64,000 bases of DNA from Prorocentrum cordatum (lineage: Eukaryota > Sar > Dinophyceae > Prorocentrales > Prorocentraceae), in the NCBI GenBank assembly GCA_963575745.1, contig CAUYUJ010000194.1, positions 30,001 through 94,000 of the forward strand. Reading direction: 5' to 3'. The translations under genes were made by a program, and so were the position numbers. This document shows, one piece after another, positions 28,938 to 58,163 of this stretch (position 1 is the stretch's first letter; each line of letters begins with the position of its first letter). Below the pieces are notes generated by a model. It was not told the DNA's origin, searched no databases, and saw nothing but the letters and a program-made list of their open reading frames with translations.

Positions 28938-29264
28938 AAGTGTTTTGATAGTAATACTGTACCCACGGACCTGAAAAATTACTGCGAGTGCGGCCGTTAA
29001 CAGGTGCGAAAAATCTGCTTTCTCAAAATGAATTGTCAAATATCTTTCAAAAAATTGCGAAACCACCCAAAGTTTACCACTTTGTCCTTTCTGGCCGGGT
29101 CGACCAACTAGCTCCACCCCGCGCCGGAATTCCTTTAACTCATTGATGCCAAGGAGCTTTACGAGGTACTACCTCCAGCCCGCGCCAGAATTCTTCTGGC
29201 TGGTCGATGCCGAAGAGCTCTGCGAGGTACTCGCTTCCATGCATGCTTGCACGCGTGCAAGCAC
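28938..29264 (+). mobile_element. F2 host resumed, with stacked right ends
   Basis: AAGTGTTTTGATAGTAATAC continues the F2 unit broken at 27736. Two successive F2 right ends follow (ending near 29166 and 29229), then a fragment with the F3 palindrome CTTGCACGCGTGCAAG. Confidence 0.65.
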
Positions 29265-29583
29265 ACTGGAGACGGCGGCGAACCGTCAACCTGGCTACCG
29301 CTGGAACCTCGTAGAGCTCTTTTCTTGCACGGCGATCGTCGGAACACGGAGAGAAAGCTTCTGGAGCGAGAAAGAAAAAACTCAAAAAAAACACGTTGTT
29401 CTGCTTTTACTCAACGTCGGTTCCCCCAAGTCTTTTGAAAGCAACACTGCACCTACAGACCTGAAAATGTTACTGGCAGACGCGGCAAAACCCACTACAG
29501 GTGCGAAAAATCTCGTTTCTCAAAATGAATTGTCAAACATGGTATCATCCGAAACCCGGAGAGCAAAGATAACACGCAACAGA
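29265..29583 (+). mobile_element. F2 unit (interrupted)
   Basis: Starts CTGGAGACGGCGGCG with a diverged hairpin, CCTCGTAGAGCTC, then the F2 body to ATTGTCAAAC. A short F3-like segment precedes the next F1 unit. Confidence 0.6.
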
Positions 29584-30659
29584 AACTGGGCGCCCGTCAA
29601 CCTTTCTTACCGCTGGGGGACTCGGAGAGCTTCCTGACAATATATAATGTGGGAAAACATGCAGAGAACGAATAGTTTTTCAGCCCAAGTGATTTCAGAC
29701 CTCTCGATGCAACAGGGGAACGCCCCCGATGCTTCTCGATTGTCTTCTTCGCGAGCTCTGTAGCTCTCCTACAGCCCGAGTTACGTGCGTGAATCGACAG
29801 CACCTCTAAAGATGAGTCTAATAAAACCAATAGTTTGAGAACCCAGCTCGAGTATCAAACCGAGTTCAGATCTCTCAATGCGACAGGCGGACGCGTCTGA
29901 TGTCTGCGAGTCGACTCCTGAAATTACCAGCCCTGCAGCCCCCCTACAGCCCGAGTTAAGCGCAGAAAATCGACAGCACCTCTCAGGATGACTCGAACAA
30001 TAGAATAGTTTCGCGGACCTTGTTTGGGCACTCGAACAATAGAATAGTTTCGCGGACCTTGTTTGGCCAGCAGACCGAGTTCCGAGCTTTTGATTCGACA
30101 GGCGCACGCGCCTGACGTCTTCAAATCGATTCCTATGACCACACTGTAGCCCCCCAGCCCGAGTTGAGCAGAAAACCGAGAGCACTTCTCAAGATGACTC
30201 GAACAAGACGAATAGTTTCGCGAGTCTGGATCGGGCAGCAGACCGAGTTGAGAGCTCTGGATTCAACAGACAAATGCGACTGATGATTCTGAATCGCTTT
30301 CTGTAAGTATCGGCTCTGTAGATGTTCTATAGCTCGAGTTAGTACAGAAAACCGAGAGCTTGTGTTAAGATGACTCGAATAATACGGATAGGTTTGCGCA
30401 CATAGCTCAGACCTCTAGATTCAACAGGCGAACGCGTCTGTGGATTCTGGTTCGATTAGCTGTGCTAACCAGCTCTGTAGCTGTCCTCAAGCTCGAGTTA
30501 TGTTCAGAAAACCGTCATCGCGTGTCAAGATGACTTAAAACGGCCGATCCCGCCTGCCTGCTTTTTGGCATAAAAGGTAACCGATCGAGGTGAGATCAAG
30601 ATGGCGAGCGGGGGAACAATACTAGAGCACACACGAATTATTGAATTTCAAGAACAAAA
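29584..30659 (+). mobile_element. F1 unit (interrupted)
   Basis: Its hairpin is damaged: the left arm is shortened to GGGCGCCCGTCAACC. Satellite monomers follow, with a small local duplication at 30010-30060 (the phrase CTCGAACAATAGAATAG twice). The right region breaks at GAACAAAA (30659) and resumes at 31864. Confidence 0.7.
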
Positions 30660-31863
30660 CTGGGCGCCGGCGGTAAACCGTCAACCTTTCTTACCGCCGG
30701 GGGACTCGTAAAGCTTCCTGACAATATATAATGTAGAAAAAAATACACAGAAAAAAAAATTGTTCAGCCCAAGCAATTCCAAACCTCTCGGATGCAATGC
30801 CGAACGCCCCCGACGCTTCTGGATTATCTTCTGTACGAGCTCTGTAACTCTCCTACAGCCCGAGTTTCGTGCGAAAATCGACAGCACCTCTCAAGATGCC
30901 TCGAATAATACGAATAGTTTGGCAAACCTAGCTCGAGTGTCAGACCGAGTTCAGACCTCATGCCACAGGTGGACGCGTCTGATGTAAGCGAATGGACTGC
31001 GATTACCAGCCCAACAGCCCCCCCTGAGTTAAGTGCAGGAAACTGACAGCACCTGTCAGGATGACTCGAACAATGCGAATATTTTTGCAGACCTAGTTCG
31101 GGCAGCAGACAGAGTTCGAAGCTCTGGATTCGAAAGGCGGACGCGCCTGATGTCTTCGAATCGATTCTAGTGATAAACCAGCCATGCAGCTGCCCTACAG
31201 CCCGAGTTAAGTGCAGAGAACTAACAGCATCTCTCAAGATAACTCGAGCAATACGAATAGTTTCTGCGATTCTAGATCGGGCTGCAGACCGAGTTCAGAG
31301 CTCTGGAGTCAACAGACAAGGGCCACTGATGATTCTGAATAAGATTCTGTACGTATCAGCTCTTTACTGTCCTTTAGCTCGACTTTACAGAAAACCCGGA
31401 GCGTCTCTCAAGATAACTCGAATAATACGAATAAGTTTGCGGACCTAGCTCGGCTAGCAGACCGAGTTCAGACCTCTGGGTTGAACAGGCGAACGCGCCT
31501 GATTATTCTGAATCGATTAGCTGTGCTTATCAGCTCTGTGCCTGCCCTGAAGCTCGAGTTATCTTGAGAAAACCGTTACAGCGTGACAAGCTGACCCGAG
31601 ACGGGCGATCCCGCCGCAGTGCTTTTTGGCAGTAAAAGGTACCCGATCGAGCTGAGATCAAGATGGCGAGCGGGAATAAGATCGAATTTTGCAGAAAAAA
31701 TACTAGAGCTCCAACGAATGCTTCAATTTCGAGAACCGAAATTTCAACCGACCAAAAGTCATCAAAATGTCCGTCGAGATTTTTCTTGCCAACTAGCTCT
31801 CCAGCGCCCCGGAATTACTCTTAAGCTTCCATCAATGACTTGCTAAGGGAAGCTCTACGAGTC
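30660..31863 (+). mobile_element. F1 unit, complete, nested in F1
   Basis: Intact hairpin, CTCGTAAAGCTTCC (30704-30717), four to five monomers, right region and right terminus GGAAGCTCTACGAG (31848-31861). The host F1 unit reads GAACAAAA before it and ATTTTCAACTGAC after it. This restores GAACAAAATTTTCAAC once one A is removed. Confidence 0.8.
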
Positions 31864-31995
31864 ATTTTCAACTGACAAAAAGTCAGCAAAAGGTCCGTAG
31901 AGATTTTCCACCAGCGTCCGGCTTCTAAACCCTTTAGCTCTCAGCGAGCTCTCCGGATATTACTTTTAAGCTTCCAGCGACTTGGTAGCGTCCAA
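31864..31995 (+). repeat. Resumed F1 right region and F3 left end
   Basis: ATTTTCAACTGAC..AAGTCAGCAAAAGG continues the unit broken at 30659. Fragments of an F3 right end (CCGGCTTCTAAACCC, TCAGCGAGCTCTCCGG) and an F3 left end (TTGGTAGCGTCCAA) follow. Confidence 0.65.
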
Positions 31996-32279
31996 CTGGG
32001 AACCCGCGGTAAACCGTCAACCAGGTTACCGCCGGGAGCCTCGTAGAGCTCTGCATAGACCAGCTTGGTTCCGAGATAACGCAGAATAATAGCTTCAAAC
32101 ATAAAGACACTGTTTTTTTGGTCGTACACAATGGTGGTTCCCCCTAGTCTTTTAATCGAAATAATGCAGCTAGGGCCCTGAGAATTGCACTATCGAAAGC
32201 GCCATGATTCACTGCATAGAATAAAAATTCAAATTCGCAAAACGAATTTCAAAATCTCTCGCCATCTTCGAATCTTTCA
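31996..32279 (+). mobile_element. F2-like unit, diverged
   Basis: CTGGGAACCCGCGG hairpin and CCTCGTAGAGCTC, then a body distinct from most F2 copies but matching 17.46-17.7 kb (TTGATAGAAATAATGCAGCTAG-type and ATTTCAAAATCTC blocks). Confidence 0.6.
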
Positions 32280-32572
32280 TGGTAGCGTTCAAAACCCGGA
32301 GAGCGAAGACACCCTCGGAAACGGGAATCTTTCCTGCAGAGTCTTGGGGGGCCCCCCTACAGCGCTGCTGAAGCGCTGCCAGGATTGCTTCCATGCATGC
32401 CTGCAGGCGTGCAGGCACGCTTGGAAGCTTACCGGAAGCTCTCCCGGACCCGTTGCCGGGTCGCCGGAGTTTCTGCGGGGAACGTGGAGCGCCGTGGAGG
32501 AGCTCCTGGCAGGCACCACCACCGTCCGGCTTCTAATCTTAAACCCTTTAGCTCTCAGCGAGCTCTCCGGGA
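32280..32572 (+). mobile_element. F3 unit: palindrome-rich GC element (reference copy)
   Basis: Left end TGGTAGCGTTCAAAACCCGGAGAGC; right end TCAGCGAGCTCTCCGGGA. The right terminus GCTCTCCGGG is the reverse complement of the inner left CCCGGAGAGC, the same asymmetric design as F1/F2. The inside is crowded with palindromes: GGGGGGCCCCCC, AGCGCTGCTGAAGCGCT, GCCTGCAGGCGTGCAGGC and CCCGGACCCGTTGCCGGG. Confidence 0.65.
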
Positions 32573-32573
32573 A

Positions 32574-33378
32574 CTGGGCGCCGGCGGTAAACCGTCAACC
32601 TTCCTTACCGCCGGGGGACTCGTAGAGCTTCCTGATAATATATAATGTGGAAAAAATGCAGAGAACGAATAGTTTTTCAGCCCAAGCGATTTCAGACCTC
32701 TCGATGCAACAGCCGAACGCCCCCGATGCTTCTGGATTGTCTTCTTTGCGAGCTCTGTAGCTCTCCTACAGCCCGAGGTACGTGCGTAAATCGACAGCAC
32801 CTCTCAAAGATGACTCTAACAAAACGAACAGTTTGGCAACCCAGCTCGAGTATCAAACCGAGTTCAGACCTCTGAATGCGACAGGCGGACGCGTCTGATG
32901 TCTGCGAATCGATTCCTGTGATTACCAGCCCTGCAGCCCCCCGACAGCCCGAGCTAAGTGCAGAAAACCGACAGCACCTCTCAGGATGACTCGAACAATA
33001 CAATAGTTTCGCGGACCTAGTTCGGGCAGCAGACCGAGTTCCCGGCTCTGGATTCGACAAGCGGACGCGCCTGATGTCTTCAAATCGATTCCTGTGACCA
33101 CCAGCACTGTAGCCCCCCCAGCCCGAGTTGAATGCAGAAAACCGAGAGCACTTCTCAAGATGACTCGAACAATACGAATAGTTTCGCGATTCTAGATCGG
33201 GCAGCAGACCGAGTTCAGAGCTCTAGATTCAACAAAAAAATGCGACTGGTGATTCTGAATCGGTTTCTGTAAGTATTAGCTCTGTAGCTGTCGTATAGCT
33301 CGAGTTAATTACAGAAAACCGAGAGCGTCTGTCAAGATGACTCGAATAATACGAATAGGTTTGCAGACCTGAAAAAAA
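32574..33378 (+). mobile_element. F1 unit, left end and first monomers
   Basis: Hairpin, CTCGTAGAGCTTCC, ATATATAATG, head block, then about four normal monomers. It continues into the divergent array and right region up to 34603. Confidence 0.75.
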
Positions 33379-36911: not shown

Positions 36912-36945
36912 ACTGGGCGCCGGCGGTAAACCGTCAACCTTGGTT
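36912..36945 (+). repeat. F1 left hairpin arm, occupied LINE target
   Basis: CTGGGCGCCGGCGGTAAACC then GTCAACCTTGGTT, cut at the junction with the second LINE copy. The right arm (ACCGCCGGGG) is missing beyond the element, where sequence resumes GGGGAACTCGTAGAGC. Confidence 0.85.
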
Positions 36946-39714
36946 TTTGTTTGTTTGGACTCGCGTTCCCAGCTGAGTGCAGCTGGGCGAGGACCGGTCC
37001 CGCAGAAGCACACGGGCAGCGCTGAGCAGCGCTTCGGCTGCCGACAATTCACATTCTGTGACTGTAGCTCCTTCGAGGAGCCACGCGGCCTCGGCCAAAT
37101 CGCTCCAAACGAGGGACACGGCACTAGAAACAGCAAGCTCATGCCCAGCAGGGAAGGGGCCCACGGTTCTCGCGGAAGCGATGCCTATCTCACTGGGATT
37201 GCACTGAGTATTGATTAAGCCGATCTGAAGCCAGAAACCACATCCTGATCCTTGCTGGTCAACCCCGCCATCAAAGCCTCCCCTGATAGCGAACGGTAAG
37301 AGATAAGTTTCGAATGGATATAGATAACAATGAGTTCTGTAGAATGTGCGGCCACATCTGGCCTCATGCGTCAATTCATCCGCTCGTGTATTGTCCTCCC
37401 TGAATTCATGTCTCCATATCTCACGTCCCAAGGCAGCAGGCCTCAGATTGAAACACGCAGCGAGCTCAAAGGTACAATCAATCATGGCAGCTGTCCTCTT
37501 GCAGTAGCCACGATTCTCACATCTCCATTTCCCCTGTAGCCAGGAGCAGATAAGTAATGAGTCACCCTTGAACTCAGCAGCAAAACCCTCTGAGGATATA
37601 TCCCACACAGTCGCACGTTCCTGGATCATAGCATAACGTATTGCAAGCTTGGCGGACTCTTTGGGGTCGTACTTGGGGTGCAGAGGGTTGGTCGCGATGT
37701 CGACCGCCTCAGTATCGGCCTTCTCTCGAGCCTCAGGGGAGCCTCGAGGTCCATTAGGAGAGCCCTTCCAAGACACCACAAAGTAATCATAGACCTTAGT
37801 TTTGTTGTATTGTGTAAGGAGTTGCTTCCATACCTCCAAGAACTGAACCCAATCGCCCCGTACAGACTCCCACCACTTTTCCCCAAAGAACTGAATGTAG
37901 GGGAACTGCCAAGACCGACCGCCCACAGACACAGGGCCTCCACGAAGCCGCTTGCCCGAACTAGATAAGGCCCTGTTGCCGTGTTGTCGTAGAACCTCTG
38001 TTATTGTGTCGCGAGCCGTGACCCAGCCAACATTGCACATCATAAGCGCACGTCGGGAGTCTCGAAAGGCCCTCCTCCCCTTTGAGACGGCAAGTGGCTC
38101 GTCTCTGAGAGTGTGGGCAGCTCCCTCTCCAGAGGGCATCGGCTGTGAGCGGGCAATGGAACAGGCGACCTGCGAGCAAAGATCCTCCAGCCGCCTCTCC
38201 ATATCCGTAATCCTCCCCTCCACCTCCGTCACAGTCGCTGCAGGTACATCCTCCCCCCGTCCATCCGTAAAGCGAACACGTTTAGCACGTTGAGTCGTTG
38301 ATCCCTCCACCTCAACCTCCGTCCTTGCCGTCCTGTCCTCCTCCAAAGATAGTAAATATTGCCTCGTGGAGCGCATCATGCCCCAGCTCTTCCAACACAG
38401 CATCTGCACAGCCGACGGGAAACCCCCATCGCAGAAGATTGTCCTGACTCGTGTCAGTGCAGCTGGCCGCCATACCTCCCACCCCACATCTCCTGGCTTC
38501 CTCCTCCCTGACATTCTCAGAAGACACATACCCTCGAACGCATGGATAACCCTCACACACTCACTGTCAATCGTGATGGCCTCTGCTGCATATAAAAGAC
38601 GGCTCTGCACAGTCGATTGATATCGACGAAACTTCTTCACCAGAGGCAGCGCCCTGCACGTAAAGTACTGCACCTGCGCAAAGAATGCCCTTCGGGCCTG
38701 CTGGACGCGCTCCTGCACATCCGCGTGGATAGAAGTGAAACTTCTGGGAATCTGATACCCCAGCACATTCAAACTCTCAACATGCTTGAAAGGAACAATC
38801 CGCGAGCCAATCTGAACCGTGACCGTATCAGTGTACTGAGTACCACACACCATCATCTCTAGACTCTCCTCCTTCCACTCCATCCCCCAATCCCTGAGAG
38901 CAGTAGTGAAGGCAGTGGCCGCTACCTGCGCCTCCGATGCTGATTTGGCGGCCAGAAAAATATTGTCAGCCCAGAGAGCATGATTCCAACGTGCATACCG
39001 ACAATGATCATCATGGCATGGCATCTCGACTCCGACACCGCGCTGATCCAGGCGAGCAATCACATCACGCCACATAGCAATAGTGACAATAGTAAACGCG
39101 ATAGGTGATTCGGTACCCCCAGTACGGAGCGACCGATCCCACTGCACATTGGGGATTGTCACTCCTTCAAACAGCACCGTGCATGAAGTAGATGAGAGAG
39201 GCTCCAATAACGCATACTGTAACCGTGCACTGATCCCAAGGGCCGTCATCGCTCTCGACTGTCGGCAACGTCACAGCATCAAACGCCCGCTCGATGTCAC
39301 AGCTGAGGAGCCACGCCGTTTGATCTCGCCCCCATGTGGAAGCATGTTGTGCAATACATTTCATGGCCGATGAAATCTCCCAGCAACGTCGTCCGCTGGT
39401 AAAACCGTAAACCGCCATATCACTCATGAAGGGTTCCACACATCGTTCCAGTAAAATCGTCACACACGTGAGATACCATTTGGCCAAGGTATTTCCGACA
39501 AGCAGGTTCCTTGTTTGTCGCAGTGTTTCCAGTTTGCTCGTTTTCGGCATAAGTGTTAGGTATACTTCCTGCCATTCCCTTGGCGTCGGGCGAAGCCCGT
39601 TGAATATATCAGAGAAAACCTTACCAATAGAACGCACTGACCTCCACGAAAGAGACTTGAGAAGTTCAACCGAGATGCCGTCGGGCCCACAGGCCCGTCC
39701 TGTTCGGAGCCTGG
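36934..39714 (-). pseudogene. LINE ORF2 fragment: reverse transcriptase and permuted RNase H
   Basis: The minus-strand frame begins at the truncation with G-R-A-C-G-P-D-G-I, aligning with residue about 490 of the long copy. It keeps RT motif A (C-D-I-E-R-A-F-D). A one-base frameshift near 39250 splits it from the remaining 771-codon frame. That frame has motif B-like R-T-G-G-T-E-S-P and motif C as W-A-D-N (residues 93-96), a long connector, and RNase H-like motifs in the order G-D-S (D563), H-E-F-R-E-D-N-T-R-A-D (D624), F-D-G-G (D660), C-E-L-S-A-A-E (about 734). The frame has no stop of its own. It runs through the A-rich tail and stops at a TGA formed by the target sequence (36934-36936). 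The frameshift and truncation make it inactive. Confidence 0.85.
36946..39714 (-). mobile_element. LINE copy 2, 5'-truncated
   Basis: About 2.8 kb non-LTR retrotransposon inserted in the F1 hairpin on the minus strand. Its 3' end is a short A-rich tail (ACAAACAAAAA) abutting CCAAGGTTGAC of the target. The 5' end is cut just before the reverse transcriptase start and joins GGGGAACTCG of the F1 unit. The right hairpin arm was deleted, so no duplication is visible. Confidence 0.9.
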
Positions 39715-40772
39715 GGAACTCGTAGAGCTTCCTGACAGTATATAGTATGGAAGGAAAATCCAGAAAACGACTAGTTTCTGAGCTCAAGCGATTTCAGACC
39801 TCTCAAGATGACTAACAAAAAAACAGTTTGCCAACCCAGCTCGAGTATCAAACCGAGTTCAGACCTCTGAATGCAACAGGCGGACGCGTGAAATGTCCGC
39901 GAATCGACTCCTGTGACTGGCCCTGCAGCCCCCCTACCGCCCGAGTTAAGTGCAGAAAACCGACAGCATGACTCGAATAATACAATAGTTTCGCGAACCT
40001 AGTTCGAACAACAGACCGAGTTCCGAGCTCTGGATTCGACAGACGGACATTGCTGATGTCTCTGAATCGATTTATGTCACCAGCAGCACTGTAGCCCTCC
40101 CCAAGCACGAGTTAAGTACAGAAAACCGAGAGCACTTCTCAAGATGACCCGAACAATACGAATAGTTTCGCAGACCTAGCGCGGGCAGCAGGCCGAGTTC
40201 AGAGCTCTCGATTCAAGAGACGAACGCGCCTAAAGATTCCCAATCGATTTCTGTGACTATGAGCTCTGCAGCTGCCCTACAGCTCGAGAAAAGTACAGAA
40301 AACCGAGAGCGTCTGCTACAATGACTCGACTAATACGAATAGGTTTGCGGACCTACCCCGGCTACCAGACCGAGTTCAGACCTCTGGGTTCAACAGGCGA
40401 AGGCGCCTAATCATTCTACATCGATTAGCTGTGCTTACCAGCTCTGTAGCTGCCCTAAAGCTCGAGTTATGTTCAAAAAACCGTCAGCACGTATCAAGAT
40501 GACTCGAAACGGCCGATCCCGCCACAGTGCTTTTCGATAGTAATATTCACCCGATCGAGCTGAGATCAAGATGGCGAGCGGGAATAAGATCGAATGTCAC
40601 GGGAAAAAATACTAGAGCTCTAACGAATTGTCAAATTTCGAGAACAAAATTTTCAACCGACCAAAAGTTATGAAAAGTTCAGTCGAAATTTTTCGAGCCA
40701 ACTAGCCTGCCAGCGTTTTCCAATTACTCTTAAGCTTCGCCGCTGCGCTCTCAGGGAAGCTCTACGAGTCAT
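39715..40772 (+). mobile_element. F1 unit flanking LINE copy 2
   Basis: Resumes CTCGTAGAGCTTCC and CAGTATATAGTATGG after the LINE. About four monomers, right region, and right end of the CGCCGCTGCGCTC type ending CTCTACGAGTC near 40769. Confidence 0.75.
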
Positions 40773-42110: not shown

Positions 42111-45100
42111 TCAATCACACAACTTATCGCTAAAATAGGCCTGCAAAACCCGTGGGAGTGCTGCAATAACGCACTCTGCAGCGGGGAGTTCCGTATCCGT
42201 CACCGTGGACCCGTCTTGGAGAGCGAAGGAACAAACGTAAACGTCCTTGAAGATAATCTGTGGGGATTCACAGAAGGAAGAGGTGGGCGAGAGATGGGAG
42301 AATCGAGAACGCAGTCCTATCTGAATCCAAGCTCCACTTCCTGCTCCCAGGCTGCACACACCACCATCAAAGCCCGCTTTGATGAGGCAAGGTTCATAGC
42401 ATGACTGTTCGTATGGCTGCAACTGGTACTGTTCGTTCGTGTATTGGTGGCCCTCGCGGGCCTGGTGGGTAAGGAGGTCGGCTTTCTCATTCCATTCCCG
42501 AAACTCATGCTTCAGAAGATCGCGTCCTGCTTCAGCAGGTCTCACACCATACATACAACACATTCCTTCCAAAGCATTAATCATATTATCAACACGTGTC
42601 TGGTATAAGTGATTATCGGCCTTCCAGAGGCCGCAAAGCCAGCAAATGATAAGAAGAGAATCTCCTGTGATCTCCAACGGCACGCCTCCTGAAGTCACGT
42701 CCCAACATGTGCTCCTCATGTTGTGGATTGCTAATCTCTTACTGAATCGCAGGCGTGCAGCGGGAGAATCATCCTCTGTAACAACATACTCCTCATTTCG
42801 TTCAGCCAGAAAGACAGGGGAGTTACCATCATGGATACCTTTGCATTTCTTCTGGAAAAGCTTAAGCATAGAGGGTGTACAATGATGAGTTGCAAACTGC
42901 ATAAAGGCATGAAGGCCGCCTTGGAATACTTCCCACCACCGTGGGCCAAAGAACTCATGAAAGGGTGTCTGCCAACAACGTTGTCCGATCGCTTGCCCTC
43001 CTGACCTCCAGCGTTTCATAACTCCACATTCCCTCCACTTGCCGAAAGCCCGAAGGGCTTCTCCCTCAAGTGTGCGCAGCGTATCATAACTTATTCCAAA
43101 GGCAATCAAACACATGCGTGCATCACTCCATGCTCTATGCTCGTCCGTCATGTCCTCTCCCTGATACAACCTCTGCGCATATGCCGAGACATCCTTTGCC
43201 AGCAGCCACTGAGCTCGGAGAAATCTCTGGACCAAACTGTGGTACCCAGCCTCTGCGAACCTCGATCTGGCATCGCTGTATCTTCTCTCGTGCCATGTAG
43301 CATGGGATTCGTCTGGTTCTCGGCGGCATCGAAGCATGAAGCATAAACACTTGCCCTCAAACGCGTGCAATGCATGGAGGCTATCCTTGTCGGCCGTGCA
43401 GCCATCCGCACCGAAAAGGGCAATACTCTGAACCTTTTGCTGGTATCGTAGGAACTTGTCCTTCAGAGGCGTGCTTTTGTTCCGAAAATATCCTGCCTGG
43501 GAATAAAATGTCCGACGAGCCGCCTCAATCCTAGAGTCCACATCAAGGTGCGAGGAGTACTTATAATCAGAGAACAACTGGACGCCTAGAACCGTCATCT
43601 CAGTAACACGCCTGAACCGCATAACGTCATTCAGGAAGGGTACAAGTAAGTCGGCTGAAGATAGGATCAGCCCCTCTGCATCTCTCGCAGCGTCGGCTCC
43701 GAAGACCATGTAAAGCAAGCTTGAGGGTTTCCAGCGCATGCCGAAATCGTGGAGTCTAACAGTAAGGTCGTGAATCATGCGTGCCAATTCTTCCCTGCTT
43801 CGTGCCAAGATGTAGCAATTGTCTGCCCATACGAAGTGATTGACGACCGACGTGTAGGACGATTTGCCAGACTCCATGGGATCCCCAGTTTTAAAACACA
43901 CTTGATAACCTATGTTCTGTCTATCCCATTGTCGGAAGGTTTCCTGCCACATCGCAGCAATAATAAGATTGAACCCTAGGGGTCCCTCGGCACCGCCCGT
44001 TCTAATACATCTATCCCATCTCACACCCTCCACCTCGATACTTTCATGGCAAACCGTCCCCACACTATCGCATAGTGGATCAAGAAACGCATATTGAAGA
44101 TGATAAGGTACATGCGCGTGCTGCAAACCCCGTCTAACATTGGCTACCGTGCAATGGTCGAAGGCTTGTAGGATATCTGCATTGGCCAGATGTGCTGTTT
44201 CCCCCTTTCCCCATGTAGAAGCATGCTGTCCGATGTGTTTCAAACTCGCCGTGATCTCGTTCGTGGTGCGATTAGATTGGAAGCCGTAAAGACCGAGAGG
44301 GCGAAAGAGACCGTTTCGCTCGACATGTTGTTCCACCAAGATAACAATACATGTGCTGTACCATCGTGCAATAGCGTTCTGCATACATAGAAGCCTACCG
44401 TCCCTAAGATCCGTGATGCCAGGAAGCTCGGGCATAAAGGAGATGAGGATATCACGCCATGAGGAGGGGTACGGTGTGCACATGTGTAGCATATCGTCGA
44501 ACAGGCGTCGGATGTTGCGCAATATCGTCCAAGGGAGACACTTTAACACCTCACACGGTACTCGATCTGGCCCTGTGGCTCGTTGTGTACGGAGACGCGC
44601 CCGCCCACGTCCGAGCAACGCCATAGTGATGGTCGAATACGTGCTGCTACAGAGCTCCTCCCTCGCCTTCTCCTTGATCTCCTCCATCATACTAGCGTTC
44701 TCCTCCCGCATCTGATCCGATGAAAGCTTATTTCTGCAGAAACTGTCGAGCTCCTTCCTCCAAACCTCCCTGTCCTCCGTCTCCTGGCCCTCCACCACCA
44801 AGTGTTTAATATGATGACGAGTCTTTCGACGATTGAGGGGACACTTCCAGGCTGCAACATCTCTGCGATATCGACGGCGATGTAGATTAAGCTCACTCCT
44901 GAGACGTTTCTTTTCCTCTGGAGTCGTGTCTGACGGTAGTTCCCGCCATCTCTCCAAAAGACGAGTCAACTCGATCGGCCTCACAGGTGGCCTCTGCTTG
45001 CCGCTCTGCGTCGTGGTAAAGTCCACGTCAGGAGCAGCAACAAAAGACTGGATGAGCGTGCTAGGTAAGCTGGCTGGCTCCATCTCGAGAGAACGTGCGG

Positions 45101-46103
45101 GAATCCCACGAAACACAACATCTCCCAAGCTCCGATCCACCCTCCTCCTGGCATTGAACTCATCTCCCCATGTCACGCATCGATATCCTACCAGAGAGGG
45201 CGCCGGCGGCTCCACCCGCTCCCTGTGGTCACGTCGCACAATCACACGGCCAGGCGATGCAAACAGCCCAGTTAGAAGTGCATGATCACTTAATCGACTC
45301 CTATTCCTCCTTCCTCCTCTTGCATAACACCAAGAAACTTCACACTCAGAGCACTCCCAGCGGCTGGGCACCAAGATGTAATCGAGCACCTTCTGAATTC
45401 GTCCAAAGCTACGTTGCTCGCACCACGCTTCCCAAGTAGGACGCCTATCTGCAGAAAAGGTATTGGCCGCCTTAAACATGTGGGTCTGCATGAACCCCAG
45501 TAGCATCTCCATCATCCTCCTCCTCCTGTTGATACGCTCCCTCTCCTCCGTACCACATGCCAAGGTCCTGACCTCCTTCCTCAAGCCCTCTCCCGTGGCA
45601 AGATACAATTCCCCATTACATTCTAACTCACATAGTGGCGGTAGCTCAACATTCCCGTCAAGCAAACAAACAAAGCTGGCCTGGCTATACCTGTGTCTGA
45701 GGCTTCTGAAAGTGGCAGACACACGCTCAAGCGTGAGTTCATACTCCGCTTCGCAATCTTCTCGATGAGAATCGGGCAGGTAAAGAGAGCAGACAACCAA
45801 GGGCGAGATGGATGTACCGAACACACCAATGGCGAATCTAGAGAAAGTAGTAACGAATTCCCTGGACGTCGAGGCCCAACTTCGATCGAAGAGGAGCCCC
45901 GCCTTCCTGCAGGCACTGTGCTTGATCTGCCATCCGAGACGGGCGGCATCTGCATGAATTATATTCTGGGCCTCCTGAAGCGCGAACAGACCGCCACATG
46001 CACGCATATGGTTGAGCACCTCCACGCCTCTGAAGTTGTTCTCACCAGCCTTGTCGAGGTTCCAGCATCCCAACTTGATCCCCGACAGCCGGTGCCGATT
46101 CGG
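42111..46103 (-). CDS. LINE ORF2: APE endonuclease, reverse transcriptase, permuted RNase H
   Basis: Pol-type protein for target-primed reverse transcription. Numbering is from the codon at 46071-46073. That codon is TTG, not ATG; the frame is open from just after the UGA at 46104-46106 and the first ATG (residue 22) lies inside the endonuclease. The APE domain has all key residues: N5, E34, Y98, D139/N141, D231 and S-D-H at 262-264. The RT has G-P-D (about 501-503), motif A D633 with F638-D639, motif B as R-T-G-G-A-E-G-P (691-698) lacking the usual Gln, and motif C as W-A-D-N (749-752) instead of x-A-D-D. A long connector (about 800-1100) follows. The C-terminal RNase H-like motifs are in permuted order: G-D-S (D1138), H1189..N1195..D1199, then F-D-G-G (D1236) and E-L-P-A-A-E (E1295). 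Stop is TGA. No internal stop or frameshift was seen, so it may be functional if translated. Confidence 0.92.
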   Translation of the reverse strand, partial: PNRHRLSGIKLGCWNLDKAGENNFRGVEVLNHMRACGGLFALQEAQNIIHADAARLGWQIKHSACRKAGLLFDRSWASTSREFVTTFSRFAIGVFGTSISPLVVCSLYLPDSHREDCEAEYELTLERVSATFRSLRHRYSQASFVCLLDGNVELPPLCELECNGELYLATGEGLRKEVRTLACGTEERERINRRRRMMEMLLGFMQTHMFKAANTFSADRRPTWEAWCEQRSFGRIQKVLDYILVPSRWECSECEVSWCYARGGRRNRSRLSDHALLTGLFASPGRVIVRRDHRERVEPPAPSLVGYRCVTWGDEFNARRRVDRSLGDVVFRGIPARSLEMEPASLPSTLIQSFVAAPDVDFTTTQSGKQRPPVRPIELTRLLERWRELPSDTTPEEKKRLRSELNLHRRRYRRDVAAWKCPLNRRKTRHHIKHLVVEGQETEDREVWRKELDSFCRNKLSSDQMREENASMMEEIKEKAREELCSSTYSTITMALLGRGRARLRTQRATGPDRVPCEVLKCLPWTILRNIRRLFDDMLHMCTPYPSSWRDILISFMPELPGITDLRDGRLLCMQNAIARWYSTCIVILVEQHVERNGLFRPLGLYGFQSNRTTNEITASLKHIGQHASTWGKGETAHLANADILQAFDHCTVANVRRGLQHAHVPYHLQYAFLDPLCDSVGTVCHESIEVEGVRWDRCIRTGGAEGPLGFNLIIAAMWQETFRQWDRQNIGYQVCFKTGDPMESGKSSYTSVVNHFVWADNCYILARSREELARMIHDLTVRLHDFGMRWKPSSLLYMVFGADAARDAEGLILSSADLLVPFLNDVMRFRRVTEMTVLGVQLFSDYKYSSHLDVDSRIEAARRTFYSQAGYFRNKSTPLKDKFLRYQQKVQSIALFGADGCTADKDSLHALHAFEGKCLCFMLRCRREPDESHATWHERRYSDARSRFAEAGYHSLVQRFLRAQWLLAKDVSAYAQRLYQGEDMTDEHRAWSDARMCLIAFGISYDTLRTLEGEALRAFGKWRECGVMKRWRSGGQAIGQRCWQTPFHEFFGPRWWEVFQGGLHAFMQFATHHCTPSMLKLFQKKCKGIHDGNSPVFLAERNEEYVVTEDDSPAARLRFSKRLAIHNMRSTCWDVTSGGVPLEITGDSLLIICWLCGLWKADNHLYQTRVDNMINALEGMCCMYGVRPAEAGRDLLKHEFREWNEKADLLTHQAREGHQYTNEQYQLQPYEQSCYEPCLIKAGFDGGVCSLGAGSGAWIQIGLRSRFSHLSPTSSFCESPQIIFKDVYVCSFALQDGSTVTDTELPAAECVIAALPRVLQAYFSDKLCD

Positions 46104-46934
46104 TCACACCTTGCGGTTGACCTCTACCTCGAAGTCCGTCGCTGTGATCGTCAGATTTGGGAACTTCACCTGAAGTTGGCCCCACTGCGTCTCATGGATC
46201 GTCCACGTCTGGGCTGCTCCGAATTCAGCGATACAGATCGGGCGGAGGAGTCGGTCGCCCTGAGCCTTGACCCACATGTTCGATTTCGGGGGGCCAACCT
46301 CTCCCCTCACCTCCAGGACCAAGCCGTGGCGCTGGCACACGTTACGCCAGGCCCCGCAGAAGCGACCAACTGCACGAACATGGTCGCGCTTCCAAGGAGC
46401 TGATTCGATATTGAAACGTAACTGAGTCGGGTCGATGACCTGCGTCATGCCTGCGATGAGCACGCTGGGATCTGGAATAGTCGTCCCTTCTGGCAAGGGG
46501 GCTCGCTGTGCAGTGGGAGTCACAATGATCCTGAGGAGCTTCTGGAAACGATATAGCACCTCTCGATCAGTGAATGGAAGAAACTTGATGCGACAACTGC
46601 CGAACATGTAGCGACCCGCATTGATACGCTCTGTCCCCTCCTTGCTGAGAAAGGCCTGGTCATCTGAGGCAATAACTTTGGATATATTGTCTACGAGTAT
46701 CATGGTGTCGTCAGAAGTCAGCATTTGAGCACAACGATTCTGATGATTGGCCCAATCCGTAACCCACCCCTTGACCTCGATGTATGTTGGAGAGAACTGG
46801 TTCCTACCCCCGCCTCCTCCACCGCCCCCGTCAGCGGGGCCGCTCCCAGCACTGAAGGTAGACACCGCACTCCCATTCTGAACCGTTTTTAGTGTTTTCT
46901 CGAGTTCGTCCATACGTTTATCCGTTCCGTCCAT
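46104..46934 (-). CDS. LINE ORF1: nucleic-acid-binding-like protein
   Basis: 276 codons from ATG 46932-46934 to TGA 46104-46106. The N-terminus (about residues 1-20) is a charged heptad-like coiled coil, followed by a Ser/Gly-rich linker with eight Gly in a row (about 36-44). The rest is a compact alpha/beta-like region (about 48-270) with no CCHC zinc knuckle. ORF1 proteins of LINEs often have this coiled coil plus RNA-binding fold layout; the fold is inferred only. Its TGA is in frame with ORF2, with 30 nt between the stop and the first residues of the endonuclease. The stop is followed by C, a context often leaky in eukaryotes. The product may therefore be an ORF1-ORF2 fusion made by readthrough, or the TGA may be a recent nonsense change (CGA to TGA is one transition). 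Confidence 0.8.
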   Translation of the reverse strand: MDGTDKRMDELEKTLKTVQNGSAVSTFSAGSGPADGGGGGGGGRNQFSPTYIEVKGWVTDWANHQNRCAQMLTSDDTMILVDNISKVIASDDQAFLSKEGTERINAGRYMFGSCRIKFLPFTDREVLYRFQKLLRIIVTPTAQRAPLPEGTTIPDPSVLIAGMTQVIDPTQLRFNIESAPWKRDHVRAVGRFCGAWRNVCQRHGLVLEVRGEVGPPKSNMWVKAQGDRLLRPICIAEFGAAQTWTIHETQWGQLQVKFPNLTITATDFEVEVNRKV

Positions 46935-46952
46935 ACGTTTAGTGTGTTCTGC

Positions 46953-47934
46953 TCAACCTTGGTTACCGCCGGGAGACTCGTAGAGCTTCCTACCTCGACT
47001 TAAGTTGAGAAAACGAACAGCACCTACCAACATTCCAACTCATAGTGAATATTGTTTGACCTCTGAATGCGACAGGCGGACGCGTCTGATGTCTGCGAAT
47101 CGAATCCTGTCATTACCAGCCCTGCAGCCCCCCTGCAGCCCGAGTTAAGTGCAGAAAACCGACAGCACCTCTCAGTATGACTCGAACAATACAATAGTTT
47201 CGCAGACCTAAATCGGGGAGCAGACCGAGTTCCGAGCTCTGGATTCGACAGGCAGACGCGCCTGATGTCTTCAAATCGATTACTGTGACCACCAGCACTG
47301 TAGCCGCCCTCAGCGCGAGTTGAATGAAGAAAACCGAGAGCACTTCTCAAAGATGACTCGACCAATACAAAGAGTTTCGCAATTCTAGATTCGGCAGCAG
47401 ACCGAGTTAAGAGCTCTGGATTCGACAGACAAACGCAACGAATGATTCTGAATCGGTTTCTGTAAATATCAGCTCTGTAGCTGTCCTACAGCTCGAGTTA
47501 AGTACAGAAAACCGGGAGATCCTGTCAAGATGACTCGAATGATACGAATAGGTTTGCGGATATAGCTCGGCTAACAGACCGAGTTCAGACCTTTGGATTC
47601 AACAGACGAACGCGCCTAATCATTCTACATCGATTAGCTGTGCTTACCAGCACTGTAGCTGTCCTAAAGCTCGAGTTATGTTCAGAAAACGGTCAGCGCG
47701 TATCGAGATGACTCAAAACGGCCGATCCCGCCACAGTGCTTTTCGATAGAAGTATTCACCCGATCGAGCTGAGATTAAGATGGCGAGCGGGAATAAGATC
47801 GAATATCACGGGAAAAAATACTAGAGCTCAAACGAATTGTTCAATTTCGAGAACAAAATTTTCAACCGACCAAGATTTTTCGAGCCAACTAGCTCTCCAG
47901 CGCGCCGGAATTACTCTTAGCTTCCAGCAACTGG
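46953..47934 (+). mobile_element. F1 unit flanking LINE copy 1
   Basis: TCAACCTTGGTT (46953-46964) then ACCGCCGGGAGACTCGTAGAGCTTCC, completing the split hairpin. About four monomers and the right region, broken within the right hairpin at TTCCAGCAA. Confidence 0.8.
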
Positions 47935-48829
47935 GAGCCGGCGGTAAACCGTCAACCAGTTACCACCGGGAGCCTCGTAGAGCTCTTTTCGTGCGGGGCT
48001 ACCCGGTACACATTAAGGGAGTTTTCTTCAAGATTTCTATGCGAAAGAGCTCTCAAGCTCATCTGGAGCTCGAGTAAAGTAGAAAAAACACCTGTTCCAA
48101 CAAAAATCGGTCGCATACGAATAGTGTTGCGGATCTAGCTCGGGTAGCAGACTGTGTTCAGGGCTCTAGATGCTCAGCCGAACGCCCCTGATGATTCTCG
48201 ATCGGTATCCGTGCGTCCTAGCTCTGCAACTCTGCTACAGTTTCAGTTAAGTACAGAAGACCGACAGCGCCTGCAAAGAGAACTTGAAGCGAATAGTTTT
48301 GCGGACCTAGCTCGGTAGCAGACCGAGTTCAGACCGCTCGATGCAACAGACGGACGCGCCTAATGATACAGAATCCTATCATGTGCGTACCAGCTCTGTA
48401 GCTATTCTAGATCGTGAGTTAAGTACAGAAAACCAGCAGCACTTGTTAAAATGACTCGAAGAATACGAATAGATTTGCGGACCCTGCTCGAGCAGCAGAC
48501 CGAGTTCAGAGCTCTCGATGGGAGAGACGAACGCGCCTGAAGATTCTGAATCGGTTCCTGTAAGCATCAGCTCTGTAGCTGTCCTAAATCTCGAGGTAAG
48601 TACAGAAAACCGTTAACGCGTGTCAAGATGACTCCAAACGGCCGTCGGTTCCAGCAAGTCTTTTGATAGTAATATTGCAGCTACGGACCTGAGAATTTAA
48701 ATGGCAGACGCGGCACAGCCCACTACAGGTGAGAAAAATACCACTTTCCAAAACGAATTTTCAAATTTCGCACAAAGATTCAAACACCGACCCAAAGTTA
48801 ACACATTGTCTCTTACGGTCGGGTCGGCC
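47935..48829 (+). mobile_element. Mosaic unit: F2 ends around satellite monomers
   Basis: F2-type left end (CTGGGAGCCGGCGG, CCTCGTAGAGCTC), then about four divergent satellite monomers (48.1-48.63 kb), then a switch at GGCCGTCGGTTCC into F2 body up to GTCGGCCAA. Either a nested truncated F1 or a recombinant between families. Confidence 0.55.
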
Positions 48830-49895
48830 AACTGGGCGCCGGCGGTAAACCGTCAACCTTTCTTACCGCCGGGGGACTCGTAGAGCTTCCTGACAGTATA
48901 TAATGTGGGAAAAAACTCCAGAGAACGACTAGTTTTTCAGCCCAAGCGATTTCGGACCTCTCAAGATGACTCTAACAAAAACAAACAAACAGTTTCGCAA
49001 CAGAGTTCGAAAATCAAACCGAGTTCAGACCTCTGAATGCGACAGGCGGACTGACGACTCCGAATCGACTCAGGTGATTACCAGCCCTGCAGCCCCCCTA
49101 CAGCCCGAGTTGAATGCAGAAAACCGACAGCATCTCTCAGGATGACTCGAATAATACAATAGTTTCGCGGACCTAGTTCGAGCAGCAGGTCGAGTTCCAA
49201 GTTTTAGGTTCGACGGACAGACGCGCCTGATGTGTCCGAATCGATTTCTGTGACCAGCAGCACTGTAGCCCTCTCCCAGCACGAGTTGAGTGCAGAAAAT
49301 TGAGAGCACTTCTCAAGATGATTCCGAGAATACGAATAGCTTCGCGAACCTAGCTCGGGCAGCAGGCCGAGTTCAGATCTCTCGATTCAACAGACGAAAG
49401 CGCCTGATGACTCCAATCGATTTCTGTGACTATGAGCTCTGTAGCTGCCCTACAGCTCGAGTTAAGTACCGAAAACCGAGAGCGTCTGTCAAGATGACTC
49501 GAATAATACAAATAGGTTTGCGGACCTAGCTTGGCTAGCAGACCGAGTTCAGACCTCTGGATTCAACAGGCGAGCGCGCCTGATGATTCTGAATGCGATA
49601 GGTGTGCTGACCAGCTCTGTAGCTGCCCTACAGCTCGAGTTAAGTACAACGTACTGACAACGCGTATGAAGATGACTCGAAACGGTCGATCCCGCCTGCC
49701 TGCTTTTCGGCAGTAAAAGGTACCCGATCGAGCTGAGATCAAGATGGCGAGCGGGAATAAGATCGAATATCACGGGAAAGAATACTAGAGCTCTAACGAA
49801 TGGTTGAATTTCGAGAACAAAATTTTCAACCGACCAAAGGTCACCAAAAGGTCCGTCGAGATGTTTCTTGCCAACTAGCTCTCCAGCGCCCCGGA
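48830..49895 (+). mobile_element. F1 unit
   Basis: Hairpin, CTCGTAGAGCTTCC, CAGTATATAATGTGG, head block, about four monomers and the right region, broken at CCGGAA. Confidence 0.8.
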
Positions 49896-51039
49896 ACTGG
49901 GCGCCGGCGGTAAACCGTCAACTTTTCTTACCGCCGGGGGACTCGTAGAGCTTCCTGACAATATATAATGTCGAAAAAAATTGCGGAGAACGAATAGTTT
50001 TTCAGCCCAAGCGATGTCAGACCTCTCGATGCAACAGCCGAACGCCTCCCGATGCTTCTGGATTGTCTTCTGTACGAGCTCTGTAGCTCTCCTACAGCCG
50101 CAGTTACGTGCGTCAATCGACAGCATCTCTCAAGATGACTCGAACAAAACGAATAGTTTGGCAACCCCAGCTCGAGTATCAGACCCAGTTAAGACCTCTG
50201 AATGCGACAGGCGGACGCGTCTGATGTGTCCGAATCGATTCCTGTGATTACCAGCCCTGCAGCCACCCTACAGCCCGAGTTAAGTGTAGAAAGCCGACAG
50301 CATCTTTCAGGATGACTCGAACAATACGAACAGTTGCGCGGACCGAGTTCGGGCAGGAGACCGAGTTCCGAGCTCTGGATTCCACAGGCGGACGCGTCTG
50401 ATGTCTCCAAATCGATTGCTCCCACCACCAGCACTCTAGCCTCCCTACAGCCCAAGTTAAGTGCAGAAAACCGACAGCACCTCTCAAGGTGACTCGAACA
50501 ATACGAACAGTTTCGCGATTATCGATCGGGCAGCAGACCGAGTTCAGAGCTCTGGATTCAACAGAGAAACGCGACTGATGATTCTGAATCGGTTTCTGTA
50601 AGTATCAGCTCTGTAGCTGTCCTTTAGCTCGAATTAAGTACAGAAAACCGAAAGCGCCTGTCAAGATGACTCGAATAATACGATTAGGTTTGCGGACCTA
50701 GCTCGGCTAGCAGACCGAGTTCAGACCTCTGGGTTCAACAGGCGAACGCGCCTGATCATTCTGCATCGATTGGCTGTGCTTACTAGCTCTGTAGCTGTCC
50801 TGAAGCTCGAGTTATCTCGATAAAACCGACAGCGCGTATCAAGATGACTCGAAACGGCCGATGCCTGCTTTTTGGCAGTGAAAGTGACCCGATCGAGCTG
50901 AGATCAAGATGGTGAGCGGGAATAAGATCGAATATCACGGGAAAAAATACTAGAGCTCTAACGAATGGTCAAATTGTGAGAACAAAAATTTCAACCGACC
51001 AAAAGTCAGCAAAAGGTCCGTCGAGATTTTCCTTGCCAA
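49896..51039 (+). mobile_element. F1 unit
   Basis: Same layout, about 1.14 kb; hairpin at about 49896-49945. The right region lacks the GATCCCGCC block (reads GGCCGATGCCTGC). Broken at CTTGCCAA. Confidence 0.8.
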
Positions 51040-52170
51040 CTGGGCGCCGTCGGTAAACCGTCAACCTTGGTTACCGCCGGGAAACTCGTAGAGCTTCCTA
51101 GCTCGACTTAAGTTGAGAAAACCGACAGCACCTGCCAACATTCCGACTCATAGTGAATATGTTTTGACTTCTGAATGCGACAGACGAACGCGTCTGGTGT
51201 CTGCGAATCGACTCCTGTTATTACCAGCCCTGCAGCCCCCCTACAGCCCGAGTTAAGTGCAGAAAACCGACAGCACCTCTCAGGATGACTCGAACAATAC
51301 AGTAGTTTCGCAAACTTAATTCGGGCAGCAGACCGAGTTCCGAGCTCTGGATTCGACAGGCGAACGCACCTGATGTCTTGAAATCGATTCCTGTGACGAC
51401 CAGCACTGTAGCCCCCCTCAGCGCGAGTTGAGTGAAGAAAACCAAGAGCACTTCTCAAGATTTGCGATTCCAGATCGGGCAGCGGACCGAGTTCAGAGCT
51501 CTGGATTCGACAGACGGGTGCGCCTGATGTCTTGAAATCGATTCCTCTGATTACCAGCACTGTAGCCCCGCTCAGCGCGGGTTGAGTGAAGAAAACCGAG
51601 AGCACTTCTCAAGATAACTCGACCAATACGAATAGTTTTGCGATTCAAGATCGGGCAGCAGACTGAGTTCAGAGCTCTGGATTCGACAGACAAACGCAAC
51701 TGATCATTCTGGATCGGGTTCTGTAAATATCAGCTCTGTAGCTCTTCTACAGCTCGAGTTAAGTACATAAAACCGAGAGTTTCTGTCAAGATGCCTTGAA
51801 TAATACGAATAGGTTTGCGAATCTAGCTCGACTAACAGACCGAGTTCAGACCTCTGGCTTCAACAGGCGAACGCGCCTAATCAATCTGCATCGATTAGCT
51901 GTGCTTACCAGCTCTGTAGCTGTCCTAAAGCTCGAGTTATGTTCAGAAAACCGTCAGCGCGTATCAAGATGACTCAAAACAGCCGATCCCGCCAGAGTGC
52001 TTTTCGATAGTAATTTCACCCGATCGAGCTGAGATCAAGATGGCGAGCGGGAATAAGATCGAATATCACGGGAAAAAATACTAGAGCTCTAACGAATGGT
52101 CAGATTTCGAGAACATAATTTTCAACCGACCAAAAGTCAGCAAAAGTTCCGTCGAGATTTTTCTTGCCAA
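51040..52170 (+). mobile_element. F1 unit (host of the next unit)
   Basis: Same layout, with one shortened monomer near 51460. Broken at CTTGCCAA (52170); its remainder ACTAGCTCTCCAGC resumes at 53209. Confidence 0.8.
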
Positions 52171-55714: not shown

Positions 55715-56936
55715 TGTTTTTTTTTTGGGGGGGGAGGCTGACCAGGCACCGAGCGCCCCAGCGCCCGTTAAGTGCCTACCTAGTCTCTCTGCAGCTGGAG
55801 GTCTTGGGCCACCTGGGCTGCGGCCCGCAAGAGGCCCTCGAGACCCGAAAGCTCAGCGTCAGTGATACTGCTATGGGAGGGGAGTGCCTGTGCACAACGC
55901 CCTACTACTTCCCATATGATTGGACAAGGAGAGGAGGCTTGGGGGAAGAGGGAGACTACACGAGCTCTCTTATCTCTATGTTCAGGGTCAGGGTACGGAT
56001 CATGGAAACGAGGGATATATCCAATCTGCAGAAACCAACCAACGCCCACACCTTGGGCACACACTCCGCCATCGAAGGATCCGCGGAGGCCGATAACTCG
56101 AAAGTTGTCTTGAACATCAGGACGGAAGATATGGTGGTGGAACAGCTCTCTGAATATCTGGCCTTCCCGTGCTAGATGGGTAAGTTCATCAGCTACTGTA
56201 TTACTCTCCCGATATATGTGTCGAATAAAGTCATTGCCCCATGAGGGGGGTCGTACTCCTTCCTCCTCCAATTCTTCCAAAAGAGAAATAATATTTGCAA
56301 CCCGCCTACGATAAGAAGCCCCATCTCCTCCTTCTCCTCCTTCAACCTTCCAGAGACCGTTGATCCAATTACAGATAAGAAGCGAATCGCCCGTCAGCTC
56401 CAGACCGATCCCATCATCACTCAGATCCCAAGTCGGCTCCTGTTCATTGTTCGAGGCCAATCTCTGGGCCAGCTTCTCAGACTCCTTCACCGACAACGGA
56501 CGGGCCATCATCTCCTCCCCCCTCTCCTTTATGTAGTTTCCTCGTCCTCCAGTTCCTCCACGGACAACAAACAAGTCAAACAGAGAACCCAAAGTACAAG
56601 CTTCCAGGAACTGCCTGCAATACTGAACGAAGTCAGAGTAAGAGAAAGAGCACGCCCTCCACCACCGATCCTCCAGATTCACAAACGAGGGAAATATCGT
56701 CTGGAACATGAAACACCAAGGATGTTCACCCGTCGCCTGCCCCTTAGCACTGCCTAATCGTGTCAGTTTCGAGGCCTCCTTCCACTTCCACTGGGAACGC
56801 AAACATTCTGACTCAAGTGTCCTTTTCTCCTCCCACCTCGGGGTACAACACATCAGAAGCCGACGTGCGTCTCGATGCGCTCGAGGAAACACCGTCTGTT
56901 GTCCAGGTCCAGGAACTGCCACCCTCCGACGCTTCG
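55715..56936 (-). mobile_element. LINE copy 3, strongly 5'-truncated
   Basis: About 1.2 kb, minus strand. The 3' end is CCCCCCCC then an A-run against the target AAGGTTGACGG. The 5' end joins CGGGGGACTCGTAGAGC of the F1 unit, with part of the right hairpin arm lost. It diverges strongly from copies 1 and 2 at protein level, so it represents another lineage using the same site. Confidence 0.88.
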
Positions 56937-56985
56937 GGGGACTCGTAGAGCTTCCTGACTCGTAGGGATGTGAGAAAAAATCCAA
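55780..56985 (-). pseudogene. LINE ORF2 C-terminal fragment with permuted RNase H
   Basis: 401 codons; the first 16 or so come from the F1 flank, so the apparent ATG is not the native start. The LINE part has a W-W-R-A-C-S-F connector segment, then the RNase H-like motifs in permuted order: G-D-S-L-L-I-C (D200), H-I-Y-R-E-S-N-T-V-A-D (D266), F-D-G-G (D305) with G-x-G-W-F-L-Q-I-G, and A-E-L-S-G-L-E (E378). It ends in TAG 22 residues later. No frameshift or internal stop. Lacks endonuclease and RT; a dead-on-arrival copy. Confidence 0.85.
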
Positions 56986-58163
56986 AGAACGACTATTTTT
57001 TCAGCCGAAGCAATTTCAGACCTCTCAAGATGACTCTAACAAAAAAACAAACACCTCCAATAATACAATAGGTTCGCGGACCTAGTTCGAGCAGCAGACC
57101 GAGTTCCGAGCTCTGGGTTCTTCGACAGACAGACGCGTCTGATGTCTCAGAATCGATTTCCGTGACCAGCAGTACTGTAGCCCTTTCCAGCACGAGTTAA
57201 GTGCGGAATACCGAGAGCACTTCTCAGAATAACTCGAACAATACAAATAGTTTTGCGAACCTAGCTCGGGCAGCAGGCCGAGTCCAGAGCTCTCGATTCG
57301 ACGCACGAACGCGTCTGATGATTCCCAATCGATTTCTGTGACTATGAGCTCTGTAGCTGCCCTAGAGCTCGAGTTCAGTATAGAAAACCGAGGGCGTCTA
57401 TGAAGATGACCAAAATGATACGAATATGTTTGCGGACCTAGCTCGGCTAGCAGAACGAGTTCAGACGTCTAGATTCAACATGCGAACGCGCCTAATGATT
57501 CTGAATGCGATAGGCGTGCTTACCAGCTCTGTAGCTGTCATTTAGCTCGAGTTAACTACACAGAACCGAGGGCGTCTATCAAGATGACCCAAATAATACC
57601 AATAGGTTTGCAGACCTAGCTCGGCTAGCAGACCGAGTTCAGACCTCTAGATCCAACAGGCGAACGCGGTTAATGATTCTGAATGCAATAGGTGTGCTTA
57701 CCAGCTCTGTAGCTGTCCTGTAGCTCGAGTTAAGTACAGAGAACCGAGGGCGTCTATCAAGATGACCCAACTAATATCAATAGGTTTGCAGACCTAGCTC
57801 GGCTAGCAGACCGAGTTCAGACCTCTAGATACAACAGGCGAACGCGGTTAATGATTCTGAATGCAATAGATGTGCTTAACAGCTCTGTTTCTGATCTACA
57901 GCTCGAGTTAAGTACAAAATACCGATACCGCGTATCAAGATGACTCGAAACGGCCGATCCCGCCAGAGTGCTTTTTCGCAGTAAAAGCTACCCGATCGAG
58001 CTGAGATCAAGATGGCGAGCGGGAATAAGATCGAATATCACGGGAAAAAATACTAGAGCTCAAACGAATTATTGAATTTCGAGAACAAAATTTTCAACCG
58101 ACCAAAAGTCAGCAAAAGTTCCGTCGAGATTTTTCTTGCCAACTAGCTCTCCAGAGCGCCGGA
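56937..58163 (+). mobile_element. F1 unit flanking LINE copy 3
   Basis: Resumes GGACTCGTAGAGCTTCC. Several monomers, of which the last three (57.36-57.9 kb) are nearly identical. Right region broken at GCCGGAA. Confidence 0.8.

Follow-up and report, generated by a model that had tools for sequence, protein, structure and literature searches.

The last 199–225 residues of the ORF2 (open reading frame 2) protein of a long interspersed nuclear element (LINE) from the dinoflagellate Prorocentrum cordatum probably form a working circularly permuted RNase H of the archaeal type (aRNH) and of type 1, as judged from sequence and predicted models. The element was analyzed in a window of 64,000 nucleotides (assembly GCA_963575745.1, contig CAUYUJ010000194.1, positions 30,001–94,000, forward strand), and all comparisons of the domain use the three sequences that this single window provides. 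In copy 1, ORF2 runs without interruption through 1320 residues (42111..46073, minus strand; open reading frame and translation), copy 2 retains the domain in a frame of 771 residues (36934..39249, minus strand) and copy 3 is 5'-truncated, with only the C-terminal part of ORF2 left (55780..57000, minus strand). On the same kinds of evidence, we are inclined to regard the domain as a natural, catalytically active type 1 RNase H permutant that has long been fixed in a LINE clade.

The order of the motifs in the domain is swapped relative to a conventional RNase H. As had been claimed in a preliminary description of this DNA, the motifs GDS and H..RE.N..AD come first and are followed by FDGG..G.G.G and T..EL in all three copies, and the four acidic residues are invariant and are kept in the same shifted order across the diverged copies. 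The residue numbers given there are also correct: D1138 (GDS), D1199 (KAD), D1236 (FDGG) and E1295 (TEL) in copy 1, D563, D624, D660 and E734 in copy 2, and D200, D266, D305 and E378 in copy 3 in the numbering of its 401-residue form, the last set being higher by 5 in the 406-residue stop-to-stop frame (D205, D271, D310 and E383). The interval proposed for the domain in copy 1, 42114..42665, contains the right residues but starts too late; the domain begins about 15 residues earlier, near 42710, at an invariant Trp-Asp pair (residues 1124–1125, 42702..42707) that occupies the same place in copies 2 and 3. This pair lies 13 residues ahead of the GDS Asp, at what would be the new N-terminal end of the permuted domain.

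In copy 1, the segment corresponding to the RNase H C-half (β4-αB-αD-β5-αE, delimited by hhalign and AlphaFold) is placed first (residues 1122–1206, 42456..42710) and carries GDS at 42657..42665, with the D1138 codon at 42660–42662. A linker of 19 residues between αE and β1 in the AlphaFold model (residues 1207–1225, 42399..42455) leads to the putative N-half (β1-β2-β3-αA; residues 1226–1318, 42120..42398), which is delimited by motifs, invariant columns and AlphaFold and carries FDGG at 42360..42371, with the D1236 codon at 42366–42368. The corresponding first and second segments lie at 37357..37611 (D563 and D624) and 36994..37302 (D660 and E734) in copy 2, and at 56167..56436 (D205 and D271 in the 406-residue frame) and 55801..56103 (D310 and E383) in copy 3, all on the minus strand. 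The three C-terminal domains share 40–41% pairwise identity, and their invariant columns include W-D, GDSLLI, W..G.W, H..RE.N..AD.LTH.AR.G, FDGGV, G.G.G, QIG, T..EL and a further E. Between copies, third codon positions agree in 32–35% of cases, whereas first and second positions agree in 48–59%, and 48–52 of the 78–81 identical residues in each pair of copies are encoded by different codons. This pattern indicates that the copies are old and that the protein was held by selection in these lineages.

The first segment is securely homologous to the C-half of RNase H by sequence comparison. A reference alignment was built from conventional RNases HI of titled genome records (80 loci, of which 78 were used), and hhalign aligned the first segment to its C-half with a probability of 95.9%, an E value of 5.5e-9 and a score of 46.9; the maximum score among 200 column shuffles was 15.8. 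When the native-order profile of the three copies was compared with the PDB at E values of up to 10, two matches were returned, both of which were RNases H aligned to the first segment, the better one being LC11 RNase H1 (E = 0.069). Furthermore, R1192 of the H..RE motif is invariant in the three copies; an Arg at this place of the active site is reported to distinguish aRNHs from fungal and metazoan RNases H, according to the part of the source available (PMC5348765).

By its motifs, the second segment fits the first half of RNase H. A pattern for the first-half motifs, composed after both sides had been seen, matches the second segment in all three copies and 65 of the 78 conventional RNases H; it has no other match in the 97,583 residues of the six-frame translation and occurs in one of 100,000 shuffles of the copy 1 segment. 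When the native-order LINE profile was aligned to a tandem RNase HI profile, the alignment crossed the junction over 131 columns, pairing FDGG with TDGG and E1295 with the catalytic Glu, although the score was no higher (49.5 versus 49.7). A profile of the second segment compared with the PDB gave no match.

Structure prediction, which had been suggested as a check in the preliminary description, places the four acids at RNase H positions in a permuted order of elements. AlphaFold (AF2) was run twice, once for copy 1 and once for copy 3; the two runs draw on the same three sequences and are not independent. Predicted template modelling (pTM) scores of 0.61 for copy 1 and 0.72 for copy 3 were obtained, such confidence being attained by two of five and one of five models, respectively. 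The predicted order is β4-αB-αD-β5-αE and then β1-β2-β3-αA, that is, strand, helix, helix, strand and helix followed by three strands and a helix, all four of them long, plus minor extra elements. In these models, the first strand is followed directly by the GDS Asp, while the AD Asp lies in a short late helix, the FDGG Asp is in the next long strand and the TEL Glu is in the opening turns of the last helix. In the copy 1 model, αE ends at model residue 166 and β1 starts at residue 186, with a three-residue strand (171–173) between them, and the strands and helix of the N-half occupy residues 186–278. Foldseek searches of the PDB showed no RNase H among the 50 matches listed for either model, and among the 50 listed for the second model in BFVD none was named as an RNase H, many matches being unnamed. 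Foldseek follows chain order, and these negatives therefore say little. VIA showed no RNase H among the 50 matches listed for the second model.

Several results weigh against a permuted RNase H. The profile support that is strong for the first segment is near chance for the second (it scores 14.2, the shuffles average 10.2, and 17 of 300 of them score at least as high). Alignments of the second segment alone and of the rotated domain omit FDGG and move E1295 off the catalytic Glu, and the standing of a permuted RNase H is slightly lowered because its second-segment acids are thereby put off the catalytic positions. In addition, Pfam recognizes neither the native nor the rotated order, and VIA aligns RNases H to the first segment only. 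These results would be expected if a true RNase H C-half had been left after loss of the N-half and were followed by an unrelated β-rich domain, in which the likeness of FDGG..EL to RNase H motifs is due to chance; the whole unit would then be a remnant with a structural or nucleic-acid-binding role. Such an origin appears unlikely, however, since the residues kept invariant in the second segment (FDGGV, G.G.G, QIG and T..EL) are catalytic in type in three copies at only 40–41% identity and the segment stands at the same place after the first in all three. Both AF2 runs also merged it into a single domain, with its elements in the RNase H order of three strands and a helix and with the two acids where they are expected, and chance matches to the motif pattern are rare, even though this pattern was written afterwards. 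The sequence alone is blind to whether the halves pack within one chain or between chains, and a linker of 18–21 residues is compatible with a domain-swapped assembly, in which the FDGG half from one ORF2 chain would sit on the GDS half of another and each active site would be conventional in space but built from both chains. We consider this intermolecular arrangement improbable; AF2 folded the single chain as one domain at the pTM scores given above, and no sign of an obligate dimer was seen, although none was looked for.

A third account, a tandem or degenerate conventional RNase H with a decayed first half before GDS or a second C-half past the stop, is largely refuted and is considered very improbable. 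It would draw on a helix-like stretch of the KES.KLA.RLA type ahead of the domain in copies 2 and 3, but this stretch has no Glu in copy 1 and no invariant acid. The preliminary description had noted no D-G-type first strand ahead of GDS, and this holds: residues 1069–1120 of copy 1 contain no invariant Asp, and a profile scan gave no sign of such a strand at E < 1. This pre-domain stretch is poorly conserved, with five invariant columns of 60 and E1095 as the sole invariant acid, although the linker and the β2-β3 loop inside the domain are conserved as little or less. A remnant N-half upstream was considered and rejected, the hhalign probability being 0.2% against the RNase H N-half and 0.1% against the FDGG segment. 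When an RNase HI profile was run against all window frames of at least 25 residues, the only matches at E < 1 in the six frames were in copies 3 (E = 0.023) and 2 (E = 0.33), on the second half of RNase H, without any other RNase H piece; copy 1 was not listed up to E = 20, and eight further matches, with E values of 1.7 or more, lay outside the LINE copies.

The preliminary proposal of a working permuted fold is supported by the invariant acids, the C-half homology, the AF2 models and the codon pattern. In a permuted RNase H of this kind, the natural chain ends (before β1 and after αE) would be joined by the linker of about 20 residues, the new chain ends would lie between helix αA and strand β4, and β1 (FDGG) and β4 (GDS) would adjoin each other. 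D1236, E1295, D1138 and D1199 would take the places of the acids of Escherichia coli RNase HI, which we take to be D10, E48, D70 and D134, respectively, and the four carboxylates would coordinate two metal ions. As is presumed for the RNase H of other LINEs, the permuted domain would cut the RNA strand of the RNA/cDNA hybrid during or following target-primed reverse transcription. It may well have arisen when an aRNH domain at the C-terminal end of ORF2 was duplicated in tandem and the outer halves were lost, which is the usual path to permutation; no remnant was seen.

Archaeal-type RNase HI (RVT_3, PF13456; RNase_H, PF00075; LC11 RNase H1, 3u3g/4h8k; Halobacterium, 4e19; Sulfolobus tokodaii, 3aly) is among the nearest known counterparts. 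The LINE domain resembles it in the acids D-E-D-D, the GDS-like β4, the H..RE.N..AD motif with the aRNH Arg and, in the predicted models, the same main elements, whereas its halves are swapped, its spacings are longer and its scores fall below the Pfam cut-offs. The best Pfam score for the RNase_H and RVT_3 families was 13.9 bits for RVT_3, against a cut-off of 21.6, in copy 3 only. Rotation of the domain to the natural order brought little or no gain in Pfam or PDB matches; the rotated profile had four matches in the PDB, three to RNases H (best E = 0.031) and one to a GAF protein (E = 1). As a type 1 RNase H, the domain has the four acids D, E, D and D, an Arg for His and a homologous C-half, but not the chain order β1-β2-β3-αA-β4-...-αE. 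NCBIfam gave no match for the three proteins, and PHROGs gave one unnamed family (E = 0.031, in one of three members). No relative was confirmed among the pattern matches in five scans of viral contigs (1, 34, 26, 113 and 93 matches) or in one scan of genome contigs (33 matches), and none was confirmed in plasmids or phages.

The position of the domain at the C-terminal end of ORF2, after the reverse transcriptase, is shared with the aRNHs of plant Ta11 L1 and oomycete L1 LINEs. In those elements, as far as the accessible text describes them, the catalytic residues are ordered D-E-D-R/H-D, with a CCHC motif ahead of the domain (PMC5348765), whereas the order is swapped in the present LINE. A loose zinc-knuckle pattern matched once, doubtfully, in copy 1 (residue 909) and nowhere in copies 2 and 3. 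Fusion of RNase H to a LINE reverse transcriptase is also described for other non-LTR (long terminal repeat) retrotransposons (cluster E.7) in a 2014 survey of the RNase H-like superfamily, the available main text of which contains no word starting with 'permut' (PMC3985635). The DAM methylases of jumbo phages, as described in the accessible part of one report, have a naturally permuted catalytic domain, although of an unrelated fold (PMC7824862).

Few folds have been studied as thoroughly in enzymology and protein folding as that of RNase H, and the RNases H of other non-LTR retrotransposons are known in the conventional order. The preliminary description knew of no published account of such a domain. 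Full-text searches, the scope of which took in few subscription journals and did not extend to Repbase, found no natural permuted RNase H among the papers listed, and an exact-phrase literature search on permuted RNase H returned no paper. If the proposed fold is correct, a LINE RNase H can shift its chain ends to the αA/β4 boundary with the active site intact, and β4 rather than β1 would be the first strand past the reverse transcriptase. A natural, selected permutant would serve as a model for examining how a captured domain is remodelled by mobile elements and whether the swapped order alters how the domain sits relative to the reverse transcriptase. Since Pfam models missed all three copies, such a domain could also go unnoticed in other protist LINEs that are recorded as having no RNase H.

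The ORF2 protein of copy 1 is laid out as an endonuclease-like N-terminus (recognized by eye), a reverse transcriptase, a linker and the putative permuted RNase H. The Pfam family RVT_1 matched residues 595–784 of copy 1 with an E value of 3.1e-6 (27.5 bits) and copy 2 with an E value of 1e-4 (22.5 bits), both below the cut-off of 29.6 bits, and the reverse transcriptase alignment had no match in the PDB at E values of up to 1. DGN at residue 139 and SDH at residue 262 of copy 1 suggest by eye an AP-type endonuclease, for which Pfam gave no match. Motif C of the reverse transcriptase is WADN, not F/YxDD, in both copies in which this part survives (43818..43829 and 38962..38973, minus strand), so that the second catalytic Asp is an Asn in two diverged copies. 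The 771-residue frame of copy 2 contains the second half of the reverse transcriptase as well as the putative permuted RNase H; the first half was located at 39167..39793 (minus strand) by tblastn with residues 493–646 of copy 1, and copy 2 is broken because this half sits in another frame. By tblastn, the sequence upstream of copy 3 had no reverse transcriptase match to copy 1, and LINE pieces detected no fourth copy in the window.

Copy 1 is preceded by an ORF1 of 282 residues (46104..46952, minus strand) in the same frame as ORF2, with one TGA between them (46104–46106, next base C); counted from the ORF1 stop, ORF2 has its first Met at residue 33. Either read-through of this stop or a single nonsense change could account for this arrangement. 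Searches for tRNAs and Rfam families had no match in the window. The first 27–35 residues of copies 2 (start at 39793) and 3 (start at 57000) recur elsewhere in the window, at eight and eleven other places, respectively, with E < 0.1, which indicates that the LINE fragments adjoin a dispersed repeat. Several minus-strand frames at 27847..33222 and 47024..51608 also have in common, by eye, a recurring peptide similar to ALNSGCRGAAGLVITGIDS, suggestive of a second dispersed repeat family.
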